A stretch of 64,000 nucleotides of DNA, from the NCBI RefSeq assembly GCF_007050985.1, contig NZ_VHSF01000002.1, positions 558,001 to 622,000 of the forward strand, given 5' to 3'. The translations under genes and the position numbers were made by a program. Below, one piece after another: positions 2,481-20,221 of the stretch (the stretch's first letter is position 1; every line of letters begins with the position of its first letter). Below the pieces are notes generated by a model. It made no database searches. It was not told the origin of the DNA and was given only the letters and a program-made list of their open reading frames with translations. The stretch comes from Christiangramia sabulilitoris (GTDB lineage Bacteria > Bacteroidota > Bacteroidia > Flavobacteriales > Flavobacteriaceae).

Positions 2481-2511
2481 TTTGGTATAAAAAATATCCT
2501 CTCTATATTTG
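2481..2511 (+). promoter_or_regulatory. trp operon promoter
   Basis: TTTG (2481-2484), a 19-base spacer and TATATTTG (2504-2511) give a perfect Bacteroidota housekeeping promoter. The box ends only 5 bases before the leader-peptide ATG, so transcription should start at or within a few bases of that codon. Confidence 0.8.
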
Positions 2512-2516
2512 AAGTC

Positions 2517-2573
2517 ATGTTAAAAACGAACAAAAATAACTGGTGGTGGAATAACTTACGTCAAATTTCGTGA
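2517..2573 (+). CDS. trpL: trp operon leader peptide (TrpL-like)
   Basis: An 18-residue reading frame encoding MLKTNKNNWWWNNLRQIS, with three consecutive Trp codons at 2541-2549 and a stop at 2571-2573. Position, length and Trp run are those of a classical attenuation leader: a ribosome starved of charged tRNA-Trp stalls on the Trp codons. The ATG sits almost at the predicted transcript 5' end, implying a leaderless or nearly leaderless message. No Shine-Dalgarno sequence is present. Confidence 0.85.
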   Translation: MLKTNKNNWWWNNLRQIS

Positions 2574-2634
2574 GCTAATCTGCTATTTCCAATATAGAAA
2601 TCACAAAGGCTTGTCTCACGACAAGCCTTTTTTT
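2568..2634 (+). promoter_or_regulatory. trp attenuator: terminator hairpin and competing pairing
   Basis: The terminator is an 11-bp stem (2605-2615 with 2620-2630, loop TCAC) followed by T7. TCGTGAG at 2568-2574, spanning the last sense codon and stop of the leader peptide, is exactly complementary to CTCACGA at 2615-2621, the terminator loop and its edges. A ribosome finishing the leader would mask 2568-2574 and allow termination; one stalled at the Trp codons would leave it free to disrupt the hairpin. The 7-bp competitor is seen; the mechanism is inferred. Confidence 0.75.
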
Positions 2635-2655: not shown

Positions 2656-4050
2656 ATGTTTAAATTAAATACAAAATACAGGAAGACACTGGCTGATACT
2701 ATAACCCCGGTTAGTATTTACCTTAAGCTAAGGGATAAATATCCAAATAGCCTTTTGCTGGAAAGTAGCGATTACCACGCCAGTGATAATAGTTTTTCCT
2801 ATATCTGCTGTAATCCTATCGCTTCTTTTAAATTGGAAAATGACGTTATAAATACCAGCTTTCCTGATGGCAGCTCTACAACAATGAATATTGATACTGC
2901 CTCTTCTGTACCACAGGAAATTCAGAAATTTTCGAAAATGTTCTGCGCAGATTCTTCAGAATTTAAGTTTATAAACAATGGGCTCTTTGGATACATAGCC
3001 TATGATTCTGTTCGCTATTTCGAAAATGTAGAGGTTACCAGGAAAGAAAAAGATCTCAAGATACCCGATATTTATTATGCGGTTTATCAAAATATTATAG
3101 CGATTAATCATTTTAAGAATGAGGCTTATATTTTTGATCATTCCTATAACACTGAAAGTAATATTGATGAAATAGAGCAATTGCTAAAGGTTAAGAATTT
3201 CGCCACCTATAACTTCACCCGGCATGATGATCCCAGATCGAATCTAACGGATGATGAGTATAAAACTATGGTAGATTCTGCGAAAGATCATTGCCATCGC
3301 GGTGATGTTTTTCAACTGGTACTCTCGAGGAGATTTTCTCAGAAATTCAAGGGGGATGAATTCAATGTATATCGAGCACTTAGGAATGTTAATCCCTCTC
3401 CATACCTTTTCTATTTCGACTACGGAAATTTCAAAATATTCGGTAGTTCTCCAGAGGCTCAATTGATCGTCAATAAAGGCAGAGCTGAAATTCATCCAAT
3501 AGCCGGTACTTTCAAACGAACCGGAAATGATGAAAAAGACGCTGAAATTGCCAAAGAACTGGCCGTAGATGAGAAAGAAAATTCTGAGCATGTTATGCTG
3601 GTAGATCTCGCCAGGAATGATCTAAGCCGCAACGGAAGTGATGTAAAAGTGGAGAATTACCGGGAAATCCAATTCTTTTCCCATGTTATTCATCTGGTAA
3701 GTAAAGTTACAGGCAAAAAACATCCGGATGTTTCTACTCCTCAAATCGTGGCAGACACTTTTCCAGCAGGAACTTTAAGCGGAGCACCTAAGCCGATGGC
3801 CCTTAAACTCATCGAAAAATTTGAGAATGTAAACAGAAGTGCATACGGAGGAGCAATTGGTTTTATGGATTTTGAAGGCAATTTTAACCATGCCATTATC
3901 ATAAGATCATTTGTGAGTAAGAATCACGAGCTGCATTACCAGGCTGGCGCAGGAATTGTATCTGAATCCAAGCCTGAGAACGAACTACAGGAAGTATATA
4001 ACAAACTGGGTGCTCTAACCAAAGCCCTCGAAATTGCTGAAGAAATTTAA
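2656..4050 (+). CDS. trpE: Anthranilate synthase component I
   Basis: A 464-residue chorismate-using subunit, which with TrpG and glutamine makes anthranilate, the first step of tryptophan synthesis. The C-terminal chorismate-binding domain shows VFQLVLSRRF, the IHPIAGTFKRTG loop, VMLVDLARNDLSR and PAGTLSGAPKPMA. LLLESSD near residue 35 fits the LLES-type feedback site for tryptophan. The open frame extends upstream to a TTG at 2611 inside the attenuator hairpin; the ATG at 2656 is downstream of it and is chosen. TrpG begins one base after the stop. Confidence 0.95.
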   Translation: MFKLNTKYRKTLADTITPVSIYLKLRDKYPNSLLLESSDYHASDNSFSYICCNPIASFKLENDVINTSFPDGSSTTMNIDTASSVPQEIQKFSKMFCADSSEFKFINNGLFGYIAYDSVRYFENVEVTRKEKDLKIPDIYYAVYQNIIAINHFKNEAYIFDHSYNTESNIDEIEQLLKVKNFATYNFTRHDDPRSNLTDDEYKTMVDSAKDHCHRGDVFQLVLSRRFSQKFKGDEFNVYRALRNVNPSPYLFYFDYGNFKIFGSSPEAQLIVNKGRAEIHPIAGTFKRTGNDEKDAEIAKELAVDEKENSEHVMLVDLARNDLSRNGSDVKVENYREIQFFSHVIHLVSKVTGKKHPDVSTPQIVADTFPAGTLSGAPKPMALKLIEKFENVNRSAYGGAIGFMDFEGNFNHAIIIRSFVSKNHELHYQAGAGIVSESKPENELQEVYNKLGALTKALEIAEEI

Positions 4051-4051
4051 A

Positions 4052-4684
4052 ATGAAAAAGAATAAGAGAATACTGGTAATAGATAATTATGATTCGTTCG
4101 TATACAATCTGGTACATTATCTTGAAGAGCTGGATTGCGAGGTAGTGGTAAGAAGAAATGACCAGTTGCATATCGACGATCCCGAGGAATATGACAAAAT
4201 ACTATTGTCACCCGGGCCGGGAATTCCGGAAGAAGCCGGACTTTTAAAACCAATTATCGCAAAATATGCTGCAACTAAAAGCATTCTTGGAGTATGTTTG
4301 GGTATGCAGGCCATTGGAGAGGTTTTTGGTGGAACCCTTTTGAATCTTGATGAAGTTTATCATGGTGTTGCTTCAAAAATTGAATTAGTTGTTGATGATG
4401 AATATCTTTTTCATGGTTTGGATAATGAACTGCAGGTAGGACGATATCATTCCTGGGTGGTTGAAAAGAACCTCCCCCCTTCCTTACAGGTTACCAGTTA
4501 CGATGAAAAGGGTGAGATCATGTCACTTAGACATGTTGAATTTGATGTTCGTGGTGTACAGTTTCACCCTGAGTCTGTGCTTACTCCAGATGGTAAAAAA
4601 ATGATCAGGAACTGGGTAAATGGTTCCGTTTCAGATAATATTCAGGAAGAAAAAATTTCAAATTCTGAAGAACCAACCTTATAA
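4052..4684 (+). CDS. trpG: Anthranilate synthase component II (glutamine amidotransferase)
   Basis: A 210-residue class I glutamine amidotransferase that supplies ammonia to TrpE. It shows IDNYDSFVYNLVHYLEEL at the start, the oxyanion strand LSPGPGIP, the nucleophile elbow GVCLGMQAIGE with the catalytic Cys, and the GVQFHPESV motif with the catalytic His and Glu. The ATG at 4052 follows the trpE stop by one base. It might also serve PabB for folate synthesis, as dual-use TrpG/PabA proteins do elsewhere; nothing here tests that. It ends with a short acidic tail of about 20 residues. Confidence 0.95.
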   Translation: MKKNKRILVIDNYDSFVYNLVHYLEELDCEVVVRRNDQLHIDDPEEYDKILLSPGPGIPEEAGLLKPIIAKYAATKSILGVCLGMQAIGEVFGGTLLNLDEVYHGVASKIELVVDDEYLFHGLDNELQVGRYHSWVVEKNLPPSLQVTSYDEKGEIMSLRHVEFDVRGVQFHPESVLTPDGKKMIRNWVNGSVSDNIQEEKISNSEEPTL

Positions 4685-4695
4685 GCAACAAAATT

Positions 4696-4765
4696 CGTCA
4701 GCCTGATTTATTTCAGGATCTCTACAGAAGCTGAAACTTCTGAAAAGATTGGAAACAGCCTGACG
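4696..4765 (+). repeat. Intergenic palindromic repeat, copy A (trpG-trpD gap)
   Basis: About 70 bases with near-inverted ends: CGTCAGCCTG at the left and CAGCCTGACG at the right. Its interior (TTTCAGGATCTC, CTGAAAC) resembles the copies at 8476, 10384 and 14571. It fills most of the 101-base gap inside the trp operon. Confidence 0.55.
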
Positions 4766-4785
4766 CAAAGATGACAATTTAAATA

Positions 4786-5781
4786 ATGAAAGAATTACTA
4801 AACAGGCTAATTAGCCATGAAACCATAAGCACCGAGGAGGCCAAACAGGTGATCTTTAATATTTCTGAAGGGAAATATAACGATACGCAGATCGCAGCTT
4901 TTCTTACCGTTTATATGATGCGTAGTATAACTATAGAAGAACTGGAAGGTTTCCGTGATGCCCTATTAGAATTATGCATCAAGGTCGATCTTTCAGCTTA
5001 CGAAGCTGTAGATCTATGCGGAACCGGTGGAGACGGGAAAGATACTTTTAATATTTCCACAACATCTTCTTTTGTAACTGCGGGTGCGGGAGTGAAGGTA
5101 GCCAAACATGGAAATTACGGAGTTTCATCGGTAAGTGGTAGTTCTAATGTCATGGAATTCCTGGGAATTAAATTTAGTAATGATGCCGGTTTTCTTGAAA
5201 AATGTATCGACCAGGCTAATATTTGCATATTACATGCTCCTCTCTTTCATCCCGCAATGAAGAACGTGGCTCCGGTTAGAAAAAGTCTGGCGGTGAAGAC
5301 ATTCTTTAATATGTTGGGACCTATGGTAAATCCTGCATTTCCCAAAAATCAACTGGTGGGAGTTTTCAGTCTTGAACTGGCGCGGATGTATGCTTATCTT
5401 TACCAGAATACCGATAAGAATTATACCATCTTATATGCACTCGACGGGTATGATGAAATTTCTCTCACCGGGGAAACAAAAAGCATCAGTAATAATTCTG
5501 AAAGAGTATTGAAACCCGCAGATTTTGGGGTTTCTGAGTTAAAACAAACTGAAATTGCCGGCGGTGGATCTATCGAAAGTTCGGCAGCTATCCTTACTAA
5601 TATTCTGAAAGGTAAAGGATCACCGGCTCAAAACAACGTGGTGTGCGCTAATGCAGGTATGGCTATTGCTACTTCGAGAAATCTAAGTCCTCAGGAAGGA
5701 TTTCAGGCAGCAAAAGAAGCACTCGAATCTGGAAAGGCTTTCGAAAGTTTTAAGAAATTACAGGAATTAAGTCAAAATTGA
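4786..5781 (+). CDS. trpD: Anthranilate phosphoribosyltransferase
   Basis: A 331-residue homodimeric enzyme that joins anthranilate and PRPP to give phosphoribosyl-anthranilate. The glycine-rich PRPP loop CGTGGDGKDTFNIST, the KHGNYGVSS motif that binds anthranilate, and NMLGPMVNPA are all present. Length is normal for the family. It follows trpG after a 101-base gap holding a palindromic repeat, and is followed 4 bases later by trpC. Nothing suggests fusion with TrpG, unlike enteric TrpD. Confidence 0.95.
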   Translation: MKELLNRLISHETISTEEAKQVIFNISEGKYNDTQIAAFLTVYMMRSITIEELEGFRDALLELCIKVDLSAYEAVDLCGTGGDGKDTFNISTTSSFVTAGAGVKVAKHGNYGVSSVSGSSNVMEFLGIKFSNDAGFLEKCIDQANICILHAPLFHPAMKNVAPVRKSLAVKTFFNMLGPMVNPAFPKNQLVGVFSLELARMYAYLYQNTDKNYTILYALDGYDEISLTGETKSISNNSERVLKPADFGVSELKQTEIAGGGSIESSAAILTNILKGKGSPAQNNVVCANAGMAIATSRNLSPQEGFQAAKEALESGKAFESFKKLQELSQN

Positions 5782-5785
5782 ATTA

Positions 5786-6574
5786 ATGAATATTTTAGAT
5801 AAAATCATAGCAGATAAATTCAGAGAAGTAGAATTAAAGAAATCCCTGATACCCGCTTCACAACTGCAAAATTCAGTTTTGTACAAGAGAAAATGTATTT
5901 CACTTGCTGAAAATTTAAAAAAAGGTTCAGGTATTATCGCAGAACATAAGAGAAGATCTCCTTCTAAATCTGTGATTAATCAGGATCTAAATGTACAGGA
6001 TGTGGCTGCCGGATATGAGAAAGCGGAAGTTTCGGGAATTTCAGTCTTAACTGATGGTAAGTATTTCGGCGGTTCCCTGGAAGATCTTCTTTACGCGCGG
6101 GCATCAGTTAATATTCCAATCCTTAGGAAAGAATTTATGATAGATGAATATCAGGTAACCGAAGCCAAAGCCTACGGTGCAGATGCAATCCTTTTGATTG
6201 CCGCAGTTTTGACTGAAAAACAATTAATCTATCTTGCAAATTCAGCTAAAAACCTGGGTATGGATGTACTTTTAGAAATTCATAATGAGGAGGAATTACA
6301 GAAATCTTTACGGGTAAATGCCGATATGATAGGGGTTAATAACAGAAATTTAAAAACCTTTGAGGTAAGTATTGATAACTCCAAAAAACTAGCTGAATTG
6401 ATTCCCTCTAATTTTATTAAGGTTTCTGAAAGTGGAATTAGTAATACCGGGGCGATCGCAGATCTTAAAAAATATGGATATCAAGGTTTCCTTATAGGCG
6501 AAAATTTCATGAAAACGAGCAATCCCGGTGCAGCCGCCCAGGATTTTATTAAAGAACTTAAATCTCTCGCATAA
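5786..6574 (+). CDS. trpC: Indole-3-glycerol-phosphate synthase
   Basis: A 262-residue TIM-barrel enzyme that closes the indole ring from carboxyphenylamino-deoxyribulose phosphate. Visible signatures are EHKRRSPSKSVIN with the catalytic Lys on strand 1, ISVLTDGKYFGGS, LRKEFMIDEYQ, LLEIHNEEEL, IGVNNRNLKTFEV and the phosphate site SESGI. It is monofunctional; TrpF is a separate protein encoded immediately downstream, its ATG touching the trpC stop codon. Confidence 0.95.
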   Translation: MNILDKIIADKFREVELKKSLIPASQLQNSVLYKRKCISLAENLKKGSGIIAEHKRRSPSKSVINQDLNVQDVAAGYEKAEVSGISVLTDGKYFGGSLEDLLYARASVNIPILRKEFMIDEYQVTEAKAYGADAILLIAAVLTEKQLIYLANSAKNLGMDVLLEIHNEEELQKSLRVNADMIGVNNRNLKTFEVSIDNSKKLAELIPSNFIKVSESGISNTGAIADLKKYGYQGFLIGENFMKTSNPGAAAQDFIKELKSLA

Positions 6575-7288
6575 ATGCAACAAGAAACCACCGGCGGAAA
6601 AAGTCAGTTTATTTCAGCATCAGGACAAAGCACCGGGTTAAGCCTCAAAGTTTGTGGAATGCAGCAGGCCGGGAATATGATCCAGGTTGCAGAATTACAA
6701 CCAGACTATATGGGCCTCATCTTTTATGATAAGTCCCCTCGATTTTTTGATGGAAATCTTCCCGATATCTCATCTGAAATAAAAAAAACTGGCGTTTTCG
6801 TGAATTCTCCTGTTGAGGAAATTCAGTTAAAAGTGAAAAAATATAAACTCGATGCTATACAGTTGCATGGAGAGGAATCGGCAGCTTTTTCAAAAGAGCT
6901 AAAGTCCAGTCTGCAAAGATCCGGGAATACTCCCGAGTTGATTAAAGTATTTTCTATTGGTGTAAATTTTGATTTTCAGGAATTAAAACCTTTCGAAGGT
7001 ATAGTAGATTATTTCCTTTTCGATACAAAGGGAGAATTGAGAGGTGGTAATGGAAAAGAATTCAACTGGAAGATCCTTTATGAGTATCCCTCAAACACGC
7101 CTTTTTTCCTTAGTGGCGGGATTGGTCCCGAACATGGGAAAGCAATTTCAGAGATCAAAAGACATTTCCAGAGTAAAGGCAAGCCGGGACTACTCTACGC
7201 TGTAGATGTGAACAGTAAATTCGAGCTAAAACCCGGATTAAAAAAATTGAATGAATTGAAAGATTTCAAAATACAGATAAATTCATAG
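6575..7288 (+). CDS. trpF: Phosphoribosylanthranilate isomerase with N-terminal extension
   Basis: A 237-residue TIM-barrel isomerase for the Amadori rearrangement in tryptophan synthesis. The barrel begins at LKVCGM (about residue 24) with the catalytic Cys; [24 protein letters not shown], the aspartate in FLFDTKG, and [11 protein letters not shown] follow. About 22 low-complexity polar residues precede the first strand, and no later Met could start the protein without losing the catalytic Cys, so the extension seems real. The ATG abuts the trpC stop and trpB starts one base after this gene. Confidence 0.93.
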
Positions 7289-7289
7289 A

Positions 7290-8471
7290 ATGAGCTATCA
7301 AGTAAATGAAAAAGGATATTATGGTGAATTTGGCGGGGCCTATATTCCCGAAATGCTATATCCAAATGTAGAAGAATTGCGATCCCGGTATCTGGAGATC
7401 ATGCAGGAGGAATCTTTTCAGAAAGAATTCAAGGAACTCCTGAAAGAATATGTTGGACGACCCACCCCGCTCTATTTTGCGAAAAGATTTAGTGAAAAAT
7501 ATGGCACAAAAGTATACCTGAAACGGGAAGACTTATGCCACACGGGAGCCCACAAGGTAAATAACACCATTGGACAGATATTAATGGCGCAAAAGTTGGG
7601 GAAAAAGCGCATCATCGCTGAAACCGGAGCAGGTCAGCATGGTGTGGCCACAGCTACGGTTTGCGCACTTATGGGAATGGAGTGTATCGTTTATATGGGA
7701 GAAGTTGATATTGAAAGACAATCTCCAAATGTCGCCAGGATGAAAATGCTGGGTGCAAAAGTGATCCCTGCAAAATCTGGAAGCAGAACCTTAAAAGATG
7801 CTACAAACGAGGCGATTCGTGACTGGATCAATAATCCGGTAGACACACATTATATCATAGGATCTGTAGTAGGGCCGCACCCCTACCCTGATATGGTGGC
7901 TAGATTTCAGGCAGTGATCTCAGAAGAAATGAAAGTTCAGTTGAAAGAAAAAGAAGGTAAGGAAGATCCAGATTATGTTGTGGCCTGTGTAGGTGGAGGA
8001 AGTAATGCGGCCGGCGCTTATTATCATTACCTGGATAAACCAGAAGTGGGAATTATCGCGGTGGAAGCTGCCGGAAAGGGAATAGATACCGGGGAAAGTG
8101 CTGCTACCTCAGCATTAGGTAAACCTGGAATTATTCATGGAAGTAAAACCTTATTGATGCAAACCGGGGACGGCCAGATCACTGAGCCATATTCAATTTC
8201 GGCTGGTTTAGATTATCCTGGCGTAGGACCAATGCATGCGCATTTATTTGCCAGCGGCAGAGGCGAATTCATCAGCGTTACCGATGAAAATGCGATGAAA
8301 GCAGGTCTCGAATTAGCCAAACTGGAAGGAATTATTCCGGCCATTGAAACCTCCCATGCCCTCGCCATTTTTGAAGACAGAAAATTCAAAAAGGACGATG
8401 TGGTAGTGGTAAACCTTTCCGGCCGTGGAGATAAGGATCTTAACACCTATATTGAATATTTTAATTTGTAA
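7290..8471 (+). CDS. trpB: Tryptophan synthase beta chain
   Basis: A 393-residue PLP enzyme that condenses indole with serine. [13 protein letters not shown] holds the PLP lysine, [15 protein letters not shown] and the phosphate-binding [10 protein letters not shown] are intact, and the C-terminal [11 protein letters not shown] is typical. It is the canonical TrpB1 type that pairs with TrpA, encoded next. An 83-base gap with a palindromic repeat separates it from trpA. Confidence 0.96.
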
Positions 8472-8475
8472 TAAT

Positions 8476-8534
8476 CGTCATGCTGAACTCGTTTTAGCGT
8501 CTCTAAAGATTCTGAAACCATTTCAGAATGACAG
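8476..8534 (+). repeat. Intergenic palindromic repeat, copy B (trpB-trpA gap)
   Basis: Starts CGTCATGCTGAAC and ends TTTCAGAATGACAG, so its ends are imperfect inverted repeats, with GATTCTGAAA inside. It shares its left end, its centre and the ATGACAGATTT right flank with copy C at 10384. It lies inside the trp operon, between stop of trpB and start of trpA. Confidence 0.65.
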
Positions 8535-8554
8535 ATTTTAAGTAAGTAGAGAAA

Positions 8555-9325
8555 ATGAACAGAATAAATCAAAAACTGCAGGAAGATCATAAACTGCTTT
8601 CTATATATTTCACCGCTGGTTATCCCGATATTAATGATACCGAAAAGATCATTGTAGATCTTGAAAAAAGCGGAGTTGATTTTATCGAAATTGGATTGCC
8701 TTTTAGTGATCCTCTTGCAGATGGTCCCACCATTCAGGAAAGTTCTACCCAAGCCTTGAAAAACGGAATGACCACCCAAAAGCTTTTTGAACAGTTACAA
8801 GATATTCGCAGTAAGGTGAGGATTCCTTTAATTATTATGGGTTACTTTAATCCTATGTTACAATTTGGAGTGGAGGAATTTTGTAAGAAATGCCAGGAGA
8901 CCGGCATAGATGGTCTGATCATTCCAGATCTGCCGGTAGATGTATATCATGATGAATACAAGGAGTTATTTGAGAAATATGGCCTAAGGAATATTTTCCT
9001 GATTACCCCTCAAACCTCAAATGAACGCATTGCCTTCATCGATTCTGTTTCAGATAGTTTTATCTATATGGTAAGCAGCGCCAGCGTAACGGGATCTACC
9101 AGTGGCTTTGGCCAGGATACAAAAGCATACTTTAAAAGAATCAATGATCTTAATTTAAAAAATCTGCAGATTGTTGGCTTTGGTATTAAAGATCAGGAAA
9201 CTTTTGAACAGGCTACAGAATATGCTAAAGGAGCTATTATAGGTAGTGCTTTTATCAAATATCTCAATGAAAATGGCACATCCAATGTGGGTGAATTTGT
9301 GGAAAATGTTAAAGCTTTAACCTAA
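8555..9325 (+). CDS. trpA: Tryptophan synthase alpha chain
   Basis: A 256-residue TIM-barrel that cleaves indole-3-glycerol phosphate and passes indole to TrpB. FIEIGLPFSDPLADGPTIQ contains the catalytic Glu and Asp of the alpha subunit; YFNPMLQFG, GLIIPDLPVD and YMVSSASVTGSTSG (the flexible loop) also match. It is the last gene of the seven-gene trp operon. No clear terminator follows; the next start is 71 bases downstream. Confidence 0.95.
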   Translation: MNRINQKLQEDHKLLSIYFTAGYPDINDTEKIIVDLEKSGVDFIEIGLPFSDPLADGPTIQESSTQALKNGMTTQKLFEQLQDIRSKVRIPLIIMGYFNPMLQFGVEEFCKKCQETGIDGLIIPDLPVDVYHDEYKELFEKYGLRNIFLITPQTSNERIAFIDSVSDSFIYMVSSASVTGSTSGFGQDTKAYFKRINDLNLKNLQIVGFGIKDQETFEQATEYAKGAIIGSAFIKYLNENGTSNVGEFVENVKALT

Positions 9326-18980: not shown

Positions 18981-19571
18981 ATACTTTTCAGGAAATAACA
19001 TTTTAATATTGGCGTAGGATTTTTTGAGGGCTTTCTGGCTTTTCTCATAGTTCTTCCATTTCACCTTTTTAATGCCTTCACTATGCTCGGGAACAAGGTC
19101 GCCATCGAATTCGGTATACATTTCATACCAGTATGTTTCCTTGAGACGAAGCTTTCCCTTTCTTTTAAAAACATGATACGTCCGGGTAATAAACCTGGTA
19201 ATTTCCAGATCCCTTACTCCGGTCTCCTCTTCAACTTCACGAATAGCTGACTCTTCAATGCTTTCATTTTTTTCTGTCTTCCCTTTTGGAAGATCCCAGC
19301 GATTATTTCTATAGATAAAAAGGATTTCTTTCTTATCGTTTACCACCATTCCTCCAGCAGCTACAACTACTTTCATTTTTTTGAAAAGGAATTTAAGAAG
19401 TTTGGTTTCATCTGGATGATATAAATTCACATAAAGCAATTCCCCAATGAGAATTTTCTTGATAACCTTTTTGAGACGAACTGACTTTAACGGGAAAGTG
19501 GTATAGTTTTCCCCAATTTCTTTCTTTGTTGAAACAATTATGGGAATATCATTCACAAAAACTTTATACAT
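18948..19571 (-). CDS. NUDIX hydrolase with N-terminal extension
   Basis: A 207-residue protein whose second half is a NUDIX domain: GKTEKNESIEESAIREVEEE continuing into TGVRD matches the GX5EX7REUXEEXGU box that binds the metal and hydrolyses a nucleoside-diphosphate-X bond. About 65 residues precede it and resemble no domain I recognise. WDLPKGK suggests the broad MutT/DIPP-like group, but the substrate cannot be set. The gene is divergent from pyrE with only 8 bases between the two start codons, and its 3' end overlaps the convergent M14 gene. Confidence 0.85.
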   Translation of the reverse strand: MYKVFVNDIPIIVSTKKEIGENYTTFPLKSVRLKKVIKKILIGELLYVNLYHPDETKLLKFLFKKMKVVVAAGGMVVNDKKEILFIYRNNRWDLPKGKTEKNESIEESAIREVEEETGVRDLEITRFITRTYHVFKRKGKLRLKETYWYEMYTEFDGDLVPEHSEGIKKVKWKNYEKSQKALKKSYANIKMLFPEKYLAGKSEDRVA

Positions 19572-19574
19572 TTG
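19567..19574 (+). promoter_or_regulatory. -7 box placed for a leaderless pyrE transcript
   Basis: TACATTTG matches TAnnTTTG exactly and ends 5 bases before the pyrE ATG, so the transcript should begin at or near that ATG. The box also contains the start codon of the divergent NUDIX gene (19569-19571). A good -33 TTTG was not found at the standard distance, so confidence is limited. Confidence 0.45.
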
Positions 19575-19579
19575 CAGCT

Positions 19580-20221
19580 ATGATTTTGAATAAAGAAACA
19601 GCAAAAAAGACTGCTGAGCTTTTGTTGCAAATTAAAGCAATAAAATTAGAACCACAAGAACCCTTCACCTGGGCTAGCGGTTGGAAGTCGCCAATATATT
19701 GCGATAACAGGATCATTCTTTCCTATCCAATGATTAGGAACTATGTACGGGAGAATTTCGCCAGGCAGATCGAGGAAGAATACGGTAAGCCAGATGTGAT
19801 CGCTGCAGTTGCTACCGGAGCTATAGGAATAGGTATGCTGGTTGCAGAATATCTCAGTCTTCCTTTCGCCTATGTAAGGCCAGAACCTAAAGGGCATGGC
19901 AGACAGAACCAAATTGAAGGAAACCTGGAATATGGCCAGAGCGTTGTGGTTATAGAAGACTTAATTAGCACAGGTAACAGTAGCTTAAATGCCGTAAAGG
20001 CTTTGAAAGAAGCAGGAGCCCATGTCAAAGGAATGTTTGCAATTTTCACTTATGGATTTGATACTTCGGTGAAAAACTTTGAAGAACATCATATTAATCT
20101 GCATACGTTAAGTGATTACGAAAACCTTATAGAAACAGCCCAGAATACAAATTATATAAATACAGAAGAGGCGGCGATCCTGCGCAAATGGAGAGAGAAT
20201 CCTGCCCACTGGAAACCATAA
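19580..20221 (+). CDS. pyrE: Orotate phosphoribosyltransferase
   Basis: A 213-residue type I phosphoribosyltransferase that converts orotate and PRPP to OMP in UMP synthesis. The PRPP loop VVVIEDLISTGNSSLNAV, the flexible-loop region VRPEPKGHGRQNQIEG and FTWASGWKSPIYCDNR are typical. The frame opens upstream at 19526 within the NUDIX gene, but the ATG at 19580 gives the family's usual N-terminus (MILNKETAKKTAELL). An SRPBCC protein gene follows with a 2-base gap, in the same transcript. Confidence 0.95.
   Translation: MILNKETAKKTAELLLQIKAIKLEPQEPFTWASGWKSPIYCDNRIILSYPMIRNYVRENFARQIEEEYGKPDVIAAVATGAIGIGMLVAEYLSLPFAYVRPEPKGHGRQNQIEGNLEYGQSVVVIEDLISTGNSSLNAVKALKEAGAHVKGMFAIFTYGFDTSVKNFEEHHINLHTLSDYENLIETAQNTNYINTEEAAILRKWRENPAHWKP

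Follow-up and report, generated by a model that had tools for sequence, protein, structure and literature searches.

The trpEGDCFBA operon of Christiangramia sabulilitoris (GCF_007050985.1, NZ_VHSF01000002.1, forward-strand positions 558,001-622,000) is probably governed by a ribosome-mediated attenuator of the family RF01692, whose transcription starts at the AUG of the leader peptide or one base before it. Coordinates are those of the window, the whole 64,000-nt stretch of DNA that was analysed. Given that the RF01692 (Bacteroid-trp) covariance model matches above its cut-off (60 bits against a gathering score of 49; model positions 1-131 of 131) in front of a complete trpEGDCFBA operon, the attenuator itself is a known and described Rfam family, and the traits of that family, a short frame with Trp codons situated 5' of trp biosynthesis genes, are present. 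Bacteroid-trp was described from Bacteroidetes in a table entry (Weinberg et al., 2010; PMC2864571), and has been reported in front of the trp operon of F. psychrophilum (PMC6414381). The initial annotation, made from the sequence alone, had placed a trp attenuator here; the RF01692 score and the same anatomy in relatives confirm it.

The anatomy of the attenuator (Table 1), its conserved pairings and its promoter spacing are seen directly in the sequence, the comparison with relatives and the folding. TCGTGAG (2568-2574) and CTCACGA (2615-2621) are exact reverse complements of each other, and the hairpin with its T7 stands where it had been annotated, as does this complementarity. The leader folds with z = -4.6, none of 200 shuffles being equally stable, and the terminator pattern GCTTGTC-N1-6-CACGACARGC has a single match in the genome, at the trp leader.

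Table 1. Coordinates of the trp attenuator and its operon, with the his leader of the same genome (window positions, except for the his leader).
Feature	Position	Strand	Basis
TTTG, -33-type element	2481..2484	+	sequence; consensus from published papers
TATATTTG, -7 element (TAnnTTTG)	2504..2511	+	sequence and relatives
Predicted transcription start, at the A of ATG or 1 nt before	2516..2517	+	predicted, 4 or 5 nt past the -7 element
Leader peptide frame MLKTNKNNWWWNNLRQIS, 18 codons, TGA at 2571-2573	2517..2573	+	sequence; ATG position in relatives
Three Trp codons, sensor	2541..2549	+	sequence; invariant in alignment A1
Segment 1, CTTACG within Leu-Arg codons, partner 2569-2574	2555..2560	+	folding, duplex-energy control
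Segment 2, TCGTGAG, overlaps the stop codon	2568..2574	+	sequence, relatives, pairing energies
Segment 3, CTCACGA in terminator loop and stem	2615..2621	+	sequence, relatives
Intrinsic terminator hairpin and T7 (stem 2605-2615 with 2620-2630)	2605..2634	+	sequence, folding, stem covariation
trpE, first gene of the operon	2656..4050	+	PF04715, PF00425
trpG, trpD, trpC, trpF, trpB, trpA	4034..9325	+	genes of the complete trp operon
his leader peptide MRNYTVHHHHFSFHAQAR, upstream of hisG	L226:1198-1254 (G000:C1, the window's genome)	+	sequence, terminator behind

From these features we infer a start site, a leaderless mode of initiation and a regulatory response, which would operate as follows. 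A ribosome would initiate on the 5'-terminal AUG of the leader transcript; where Trp-tRNA is scarce it would stall at codons 9-11, masking segment 1. Segment 2 (TCGTGAG) would then be available for pairing with segment 3 in the loop of the terminator while the 3' arm was still to be synthesised, and transcription would go on. With ample Trp-tRNA the ribosome would get to the UGA within segment 2 and mask this segment, and the terminator would form; it would likewise form if the ribosome were absent, segments 1 and 2 then pairing with each other.

Promoter spacing and the predicted transcription start

The promoter is a perfect one for the Bacteroidetes, consisting of TTTG, N19 and TATATTTG, followed by the five bases 2512-2516 and the ATG at 2517; it had been annotated as ending five bases before the ATG of an 18-residue frame with Trp-Trp-Trp, and is found exactly so. 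The distance from box to start site is reported as 4 or 5 nt for the probable promoters of F. johnsoniae, this spacing being partly a selection rule by which 241 of 434 candidates were kept (PMC6847099), and the promoter box of F. psychrophilum is reported to span -12 to -5 (PMC9723704). Since the gap from box to ATG is 5 nt, the published spacing of 4-5 nt leads to a predicted start at the A of the AUG or one base earlier, and to a predicted untranslated region of 0-1 nt; the initial annotation had put the start near the start codon, which fits the spacing in both species. The near-leaderless state of the trp leader, which is predicted from promoter spacing, has good though not conclusive support. 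In this phylum leaderless mRNAs are uncommon, making up 5.5% of 890 mRNAs in F. psychrophilum (PMC9723704), and approximately 3.7% of the 5' UTRs reported for B. thetaiotaomicron are shorter than 10 nt.

The window has 54 frames of 150 aa or more, and for 13 of them TAHHTTTG occurs no further than 150 nt upstream; the nearest such box lies 5 nt away in one of them (19567) and at least 16 nt away in the other twelve. The single case is a second predicted leaderless start, TACATTTG-N5-ATG at 19567-19582 (+), before a frame of at least 200 codons that resembles pyrE. Genome-wide, TTG-N17-21-TAnnTTTG-N5-ATG gave eight matches (one site was read twice and accounts for two of them) against four for the reversed control, and the bare pattern therefore says little; with the gap relaxed to 0-30 nt there were at least 157 matches against at least 99 in the control.

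The question of how this spacing behaves in relatives was addressed with 189 loci, comprising 80 picked by TrpE (the best 80 of 585) and 109 picked by Rfam. A leader with Trp-Trp-Trp was recognised by the rule of our script in 177 of these, the 12 dropped loci having no leader found or Trp-Trp only; 169 of the 177, selected in this way for TGG runs, are non-identical (the window's own included), and 168 non-identical leaders, again with the window's own, have at least 30 nt upstream and entered the gap survey. TAnnTTTG occurs no more than 50 nt upstream of the leader ATG with six of six positions in 166 of the 168, and the boxes of the other two have five of six. The gap is exactly 5 in 54 leaders, 4 or 6-12 in 35, 14-22 in 75 and 38-40 in 4. 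A gap of exactly 5 was found for 35 of 74 TrpE-picked leaders, a set that was chosen without the promoter-including RNA model and leans toward close relatives of the window, and for 19 of 94 Rfam-picked leaders, which include the window's own; the genomes listed for the latter set each have a different genus code, and leaders identical to TrpE-picked ones were removed. Among the 54 gap-5 leaders the five-base spacer varies in sequence and is constant in length. As the other gaps are common, leaderless initiation is not needed for the mechanism.

Gaps of 14-22 nt predict untranslated leaders of 9-18 nt, and this lends some weight to the possibility that here too the same attenuator is transcribed from further upstream, under a different promoter or through read-through of the gene that ends at 2434, with an ordinary 5' UTR. 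A potential box for such a start, AACATTTG at 2477-2484, matches TAnnTTTG at five of six positions; however, it lacks the -12 T reported as nearly invariant in the probable promoters of F. johnsoniae (PMC6847099), and its TTTG is itself the -33 element of the perfect promoter. Together with the gap of exactly 5 that is held in 54 of 168 leaders despite varying bases, this makes an upstream start unlikely, and we favour the start at or next to the AUG.

On a quick TrpE tree of 75 rows, 27 of whose 72 inner branches are open, 37 rows have a gap of 6 or less, 8 a gap of 7-12 and 30 a longer one (L103 and L104 included). The short-gap state requires at least five changes and is found in two separated groups, Christiangramia-Salegentibacter-Gillisia-Zunongwangia and Maribacter-Allomuricauda-Flagellimonas. 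Going by the gaps of the 168 leaders, the predicted leaderless form has persisted in some lineages, and a short leader has taken its place in others. In Salegentibacter, the leaders L103 and L104 are extended 33 nt back to the leaderless position: L104, counted with a gap of 38, has an in-frame ATG 5 nt past the box and 33 nt upstream of the usual start, and the corresponding triplet of L103 is ATA.

Conservation and pairing of the leader RNA

Of 149 genomes of the family, 109 have an RF01692 match at E <= 0.001, and in 95 it lies above the cut-off; of 296 genomes drawn from the phylum, 30 have a match, 28 of these 30 belonging to the same family. The initial annotation had expected relatives to keep the Trp codons and the complementary segments, and both are kept: the ATG stands exactly 8 codons ahead of Trp-Trp-Trp in 161 of the 169 leaders (our script preferred such an ATG among several), CGTGA is present in 162, and CGTGA and TCACGA occur together in 153. 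Of the 169 leaders, 166 have a terminator hairpin whose energy is below -6 kcal/mol.

The distance between TCGTGA and the first TGG is 27 or 28 nt in 154 of the 169 leaders, whatever the word's reading phase, which is 0 in 121, 1 in 34 and 2 in 3, the word being absent in 11. In the 158 leaders having TCGTGA, the start of the stop codon ranges between 11 nt upstream and 8 nt downstream of the first base of this word, and the end of the peptide varies by phase (..S-stop versus, for example, ..FVN or ..FVK), whereas the RNA word is constant. TCGTGA is therefore kept as RNA and not as peptide.

For covariation we used an alignment, A1, of 113 of the 168 hairpin-bearing leaders, thinned at 80% identity and limited in length; the Trp codons are invariant in it, the leaders having been chosen for TGG runs. 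The terminator stem covaries, with 31 cells changed on both sides, a score reached by none of 500 shuffles. The 2:3 pairing is intact in 96.5% of cells and, given that the pair is almost invariant, we found no clear covariation beyond shuffles for it in A1 (45 of 500 shuffles reach the score). Of the interpretation originally offered, then, the attenuator, the promoter geometry and the conserved codons and segments stand, and the covariation anticipated between 2568-2574 and 2615-2621 does not rise above shuffled controls. We accordingly dropped covariation as proof of the near-invariant antiterminator, for which conservation across reading phases is the better argument. On fixed columns the 1:2 helix fits only 62.8% of cells, less than a slid version does (67.8%), as one peptide type has its segment 1 at another place.

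Pairing energies were compared with shuffled controls. The 1:2 duplex has -6.0 kcal/mol in 162 leaders against -2.9 kcal/mol for shuffled segments, and the 2:3 duplex has -13.9 (sd 2.3) kcal/mol in 149 canonical leaders, compared with -7.5 (sd 2.4) kcal/mol when the upstream segments are shuffled. In a swap test of the 168 of 175 leaders in which our routine found a hairpin (149 canonical, 19 non-canonical), L087 alone of the 19 prefers its own loop (-13.7 kcal/mol) to all canonical loops (mean -6.9, best -9.4 kcal/mol), and has clearly replaced both 2:3 partners. A possible second case is L214, from another family of the order, with ten contiguous pairs and a native energy of -12.8 kcal/mol (canonical mean -9.3, best -16.0 kcal/mol). 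L049 (native -8.2 kcal/mol) does not beat its canonical mean of -9.4 kcal/mol, and most other non-canonical leaders show little or no preference for their own loop, several pairing better with canonical loops.

The RNA was also folded from the AUG with or without an assumed ribosome footprint, which covers 18 nt on the 5' side and 12 nt on the 3' side of the first base of the A-site codon. For RNA made to 2621, the mean 2:3 pair probability is 0.95, 0.96 and 0.96 with the ribosome at the first, second and third Trp codon, 0.11 without a ribosome and 0.00 with the ribosome on the stop codon. Without a ribosome, CTTACG at 2555-2560 pairs with 2569-2574 in the predicted structures, which gives the 1:2 stem. 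In the full-length RNA at equilibrium, the terminator folds in all five states tested; antitermination must therefore be kinetic, with 2:3 forming first. By sequence and modelled folding, the leader is a classical three-segment attenuator, with exclusive 1:2, 2:3 and 3:4 pairings and suitably placed Trp codons.

The hairpin sequence is conserved beyond what a terminator needs, and it could be argued that attenuation is sensed by a protein or small ligand on this hairpin, with the near-invariant GGCTTGTC..TCACGACAAGCC as the candidate binding site. Against this stand the three Trp codons with an ATG 8 codons ahead in 161 of 169 leaders and the constancy of TCGTGA across reading phases with a stop codon near; moreover, the stem varies with compensation, and pairing with segment 2 already accounts for the loop. 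We regard such sensing as very improbable. That a chance short frame merely precedes a constitutive terminator, a reading for which we found no supporting point, can be practically dismissed, since RF01692 scores above its cut-off and the recurrence in 109 of 149 family genomes (E <= 0.001) contradicts it.

Two further features were observed in the surroundings of the trp leaders. A repeat of the type GTCATTTCCGCGAAGGCGGAAA, with variants, lies just 3' of the trp terminator in L102, L103, L104, L106, L112, L113 and L114, which belong to several genera. In L113, L114, L140, L142 and L164 (Allomuricauda/Flagellimonas-type), a small extra frame, MPAIRREKQLKKWNR..., similar to the end of a GIY-YIG nuclease, lies some 155-165 nt before trpE, between this gene and an attenuator located approximately 490-505 nt before trpE.

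The his leader of the same genome

A leader peptide frame with a terminator behind it is also found upstream of hisG (Table 1). The box TAGATTTG ends 8 nt before its ATG, and we predict a nearly leaderless transcript with the design of the trp attenuator. CTCAGGCG, near the stop codon in the tail of the peptide, pairs with CGTTTGAG in the 5' arm of the terminator; an alternative antiterminator, TGATTG with the loop, was considered and replaced by this pairing. Across 42 leaders, the energy of this pairing is -14.4 (sd 2.6) kcal/mol, whereas shuffled upstream segments give -6.7 (sd 2.6) kcal/mol. We found no Rfam families above cut-off at the his leader, nor any convincing leader peptide in the surroundings of ilvD.

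A hisG match was present in 122 of 148 genomes, and the 42 leaders come from 49 hisG loci (7 were without a leader by our filter), 18 of the 49 having been chosen because their trp gap is 7 or less. Defining short as a trp gap of 9 or less and a his gap of 10 or less, we found both short in 20 of 36 genomes, both long in 15, only trp short in one and only his short in none; the box rule behind these counts was widened after the rows had been viewed, in that TAnnTTTA was allowed, the first base and the distance (26 nt) were limited and the peptide filter was changed. Under the earlier rule (A at -11 and TTTG; 30 genomes), the same classes held 10, 15, 5 and 0. On a 35-tip tree each trait changes three times, with only two independent pairs, so the concordance of trp and his spacing is no statistical proof. 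There is about an even chance that the trp and his attenuators of the Flavobacteriaceae, leaderless or nearly so in some lineages and short-leadered in others, switched their mode of initiation in concert with their decision logic fixed.

Comparison with known systems

The E. coli trp leader works by the same three-state, ribosome-mediated attenuation as is proposed here, and its leader peptide has a ribosome-binding site and a 5' untranslated region. The E. coli model Trp_leader (RF00513) scores 17.1 bits in our sequence against a cut-off of 41. Attenuation across bacteria is said to have been covered by Lopatovskaya et al. in 2010. The published table entry for RF01692 is silent on start site and leaderless translation (PMC2864571); the model ends within the 5' arm of the terminator, and the only fold it draws is of the 1:2 type. 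For F. psychrophilum, the literature reports structured 5' regions with clues to leader peptides at amino-acid operons. Among the titles and abstract openings listed in a search, with most subscription journals outside it, we found no description of a leaderless attenuator in the Bacteroidota.

Bacteroidia ribosomes reportedly do not recognise Shine-Dalgarno sequences. A conserved leaderless leader peptide, if true, would be a clean native substrate for initiation on a 5'-terminal AUG, and it poses the question of how these ribosomes can initiate so quickly that they control an RNA polymerase some 100 bases ahead. One attenuator that occurs in related genera both with and without an untranslated leader would come with a built-in control and make a good natural experiment.

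Leaderless trp leader peptides are already known in other phyla, as reported for Streptomyces and Sinorhizobium. In Sinorhizobium meliloti, also of another phylum, the 5' end of the attenuator RNA rnTrpL is the ATG of trpL (PMC7298713); its peptide, peTrpL, has 14 residues and is encoded before trpE(G), and the system also acts in trans (PMC7298713). TrpL1 of Streptomyces lividans is leaderless, with 18 codons and Trp-Trp-Trp at codons 9-11, and precedes trpE, with two hairpins and a uridine-rich stretch (PMC8079986). Peptide length and Trp position are the same as in the leader of the window; the likeness is one of anatomy, TrpL1 belonging to another phylum with another kind of -10/-35 promoters.
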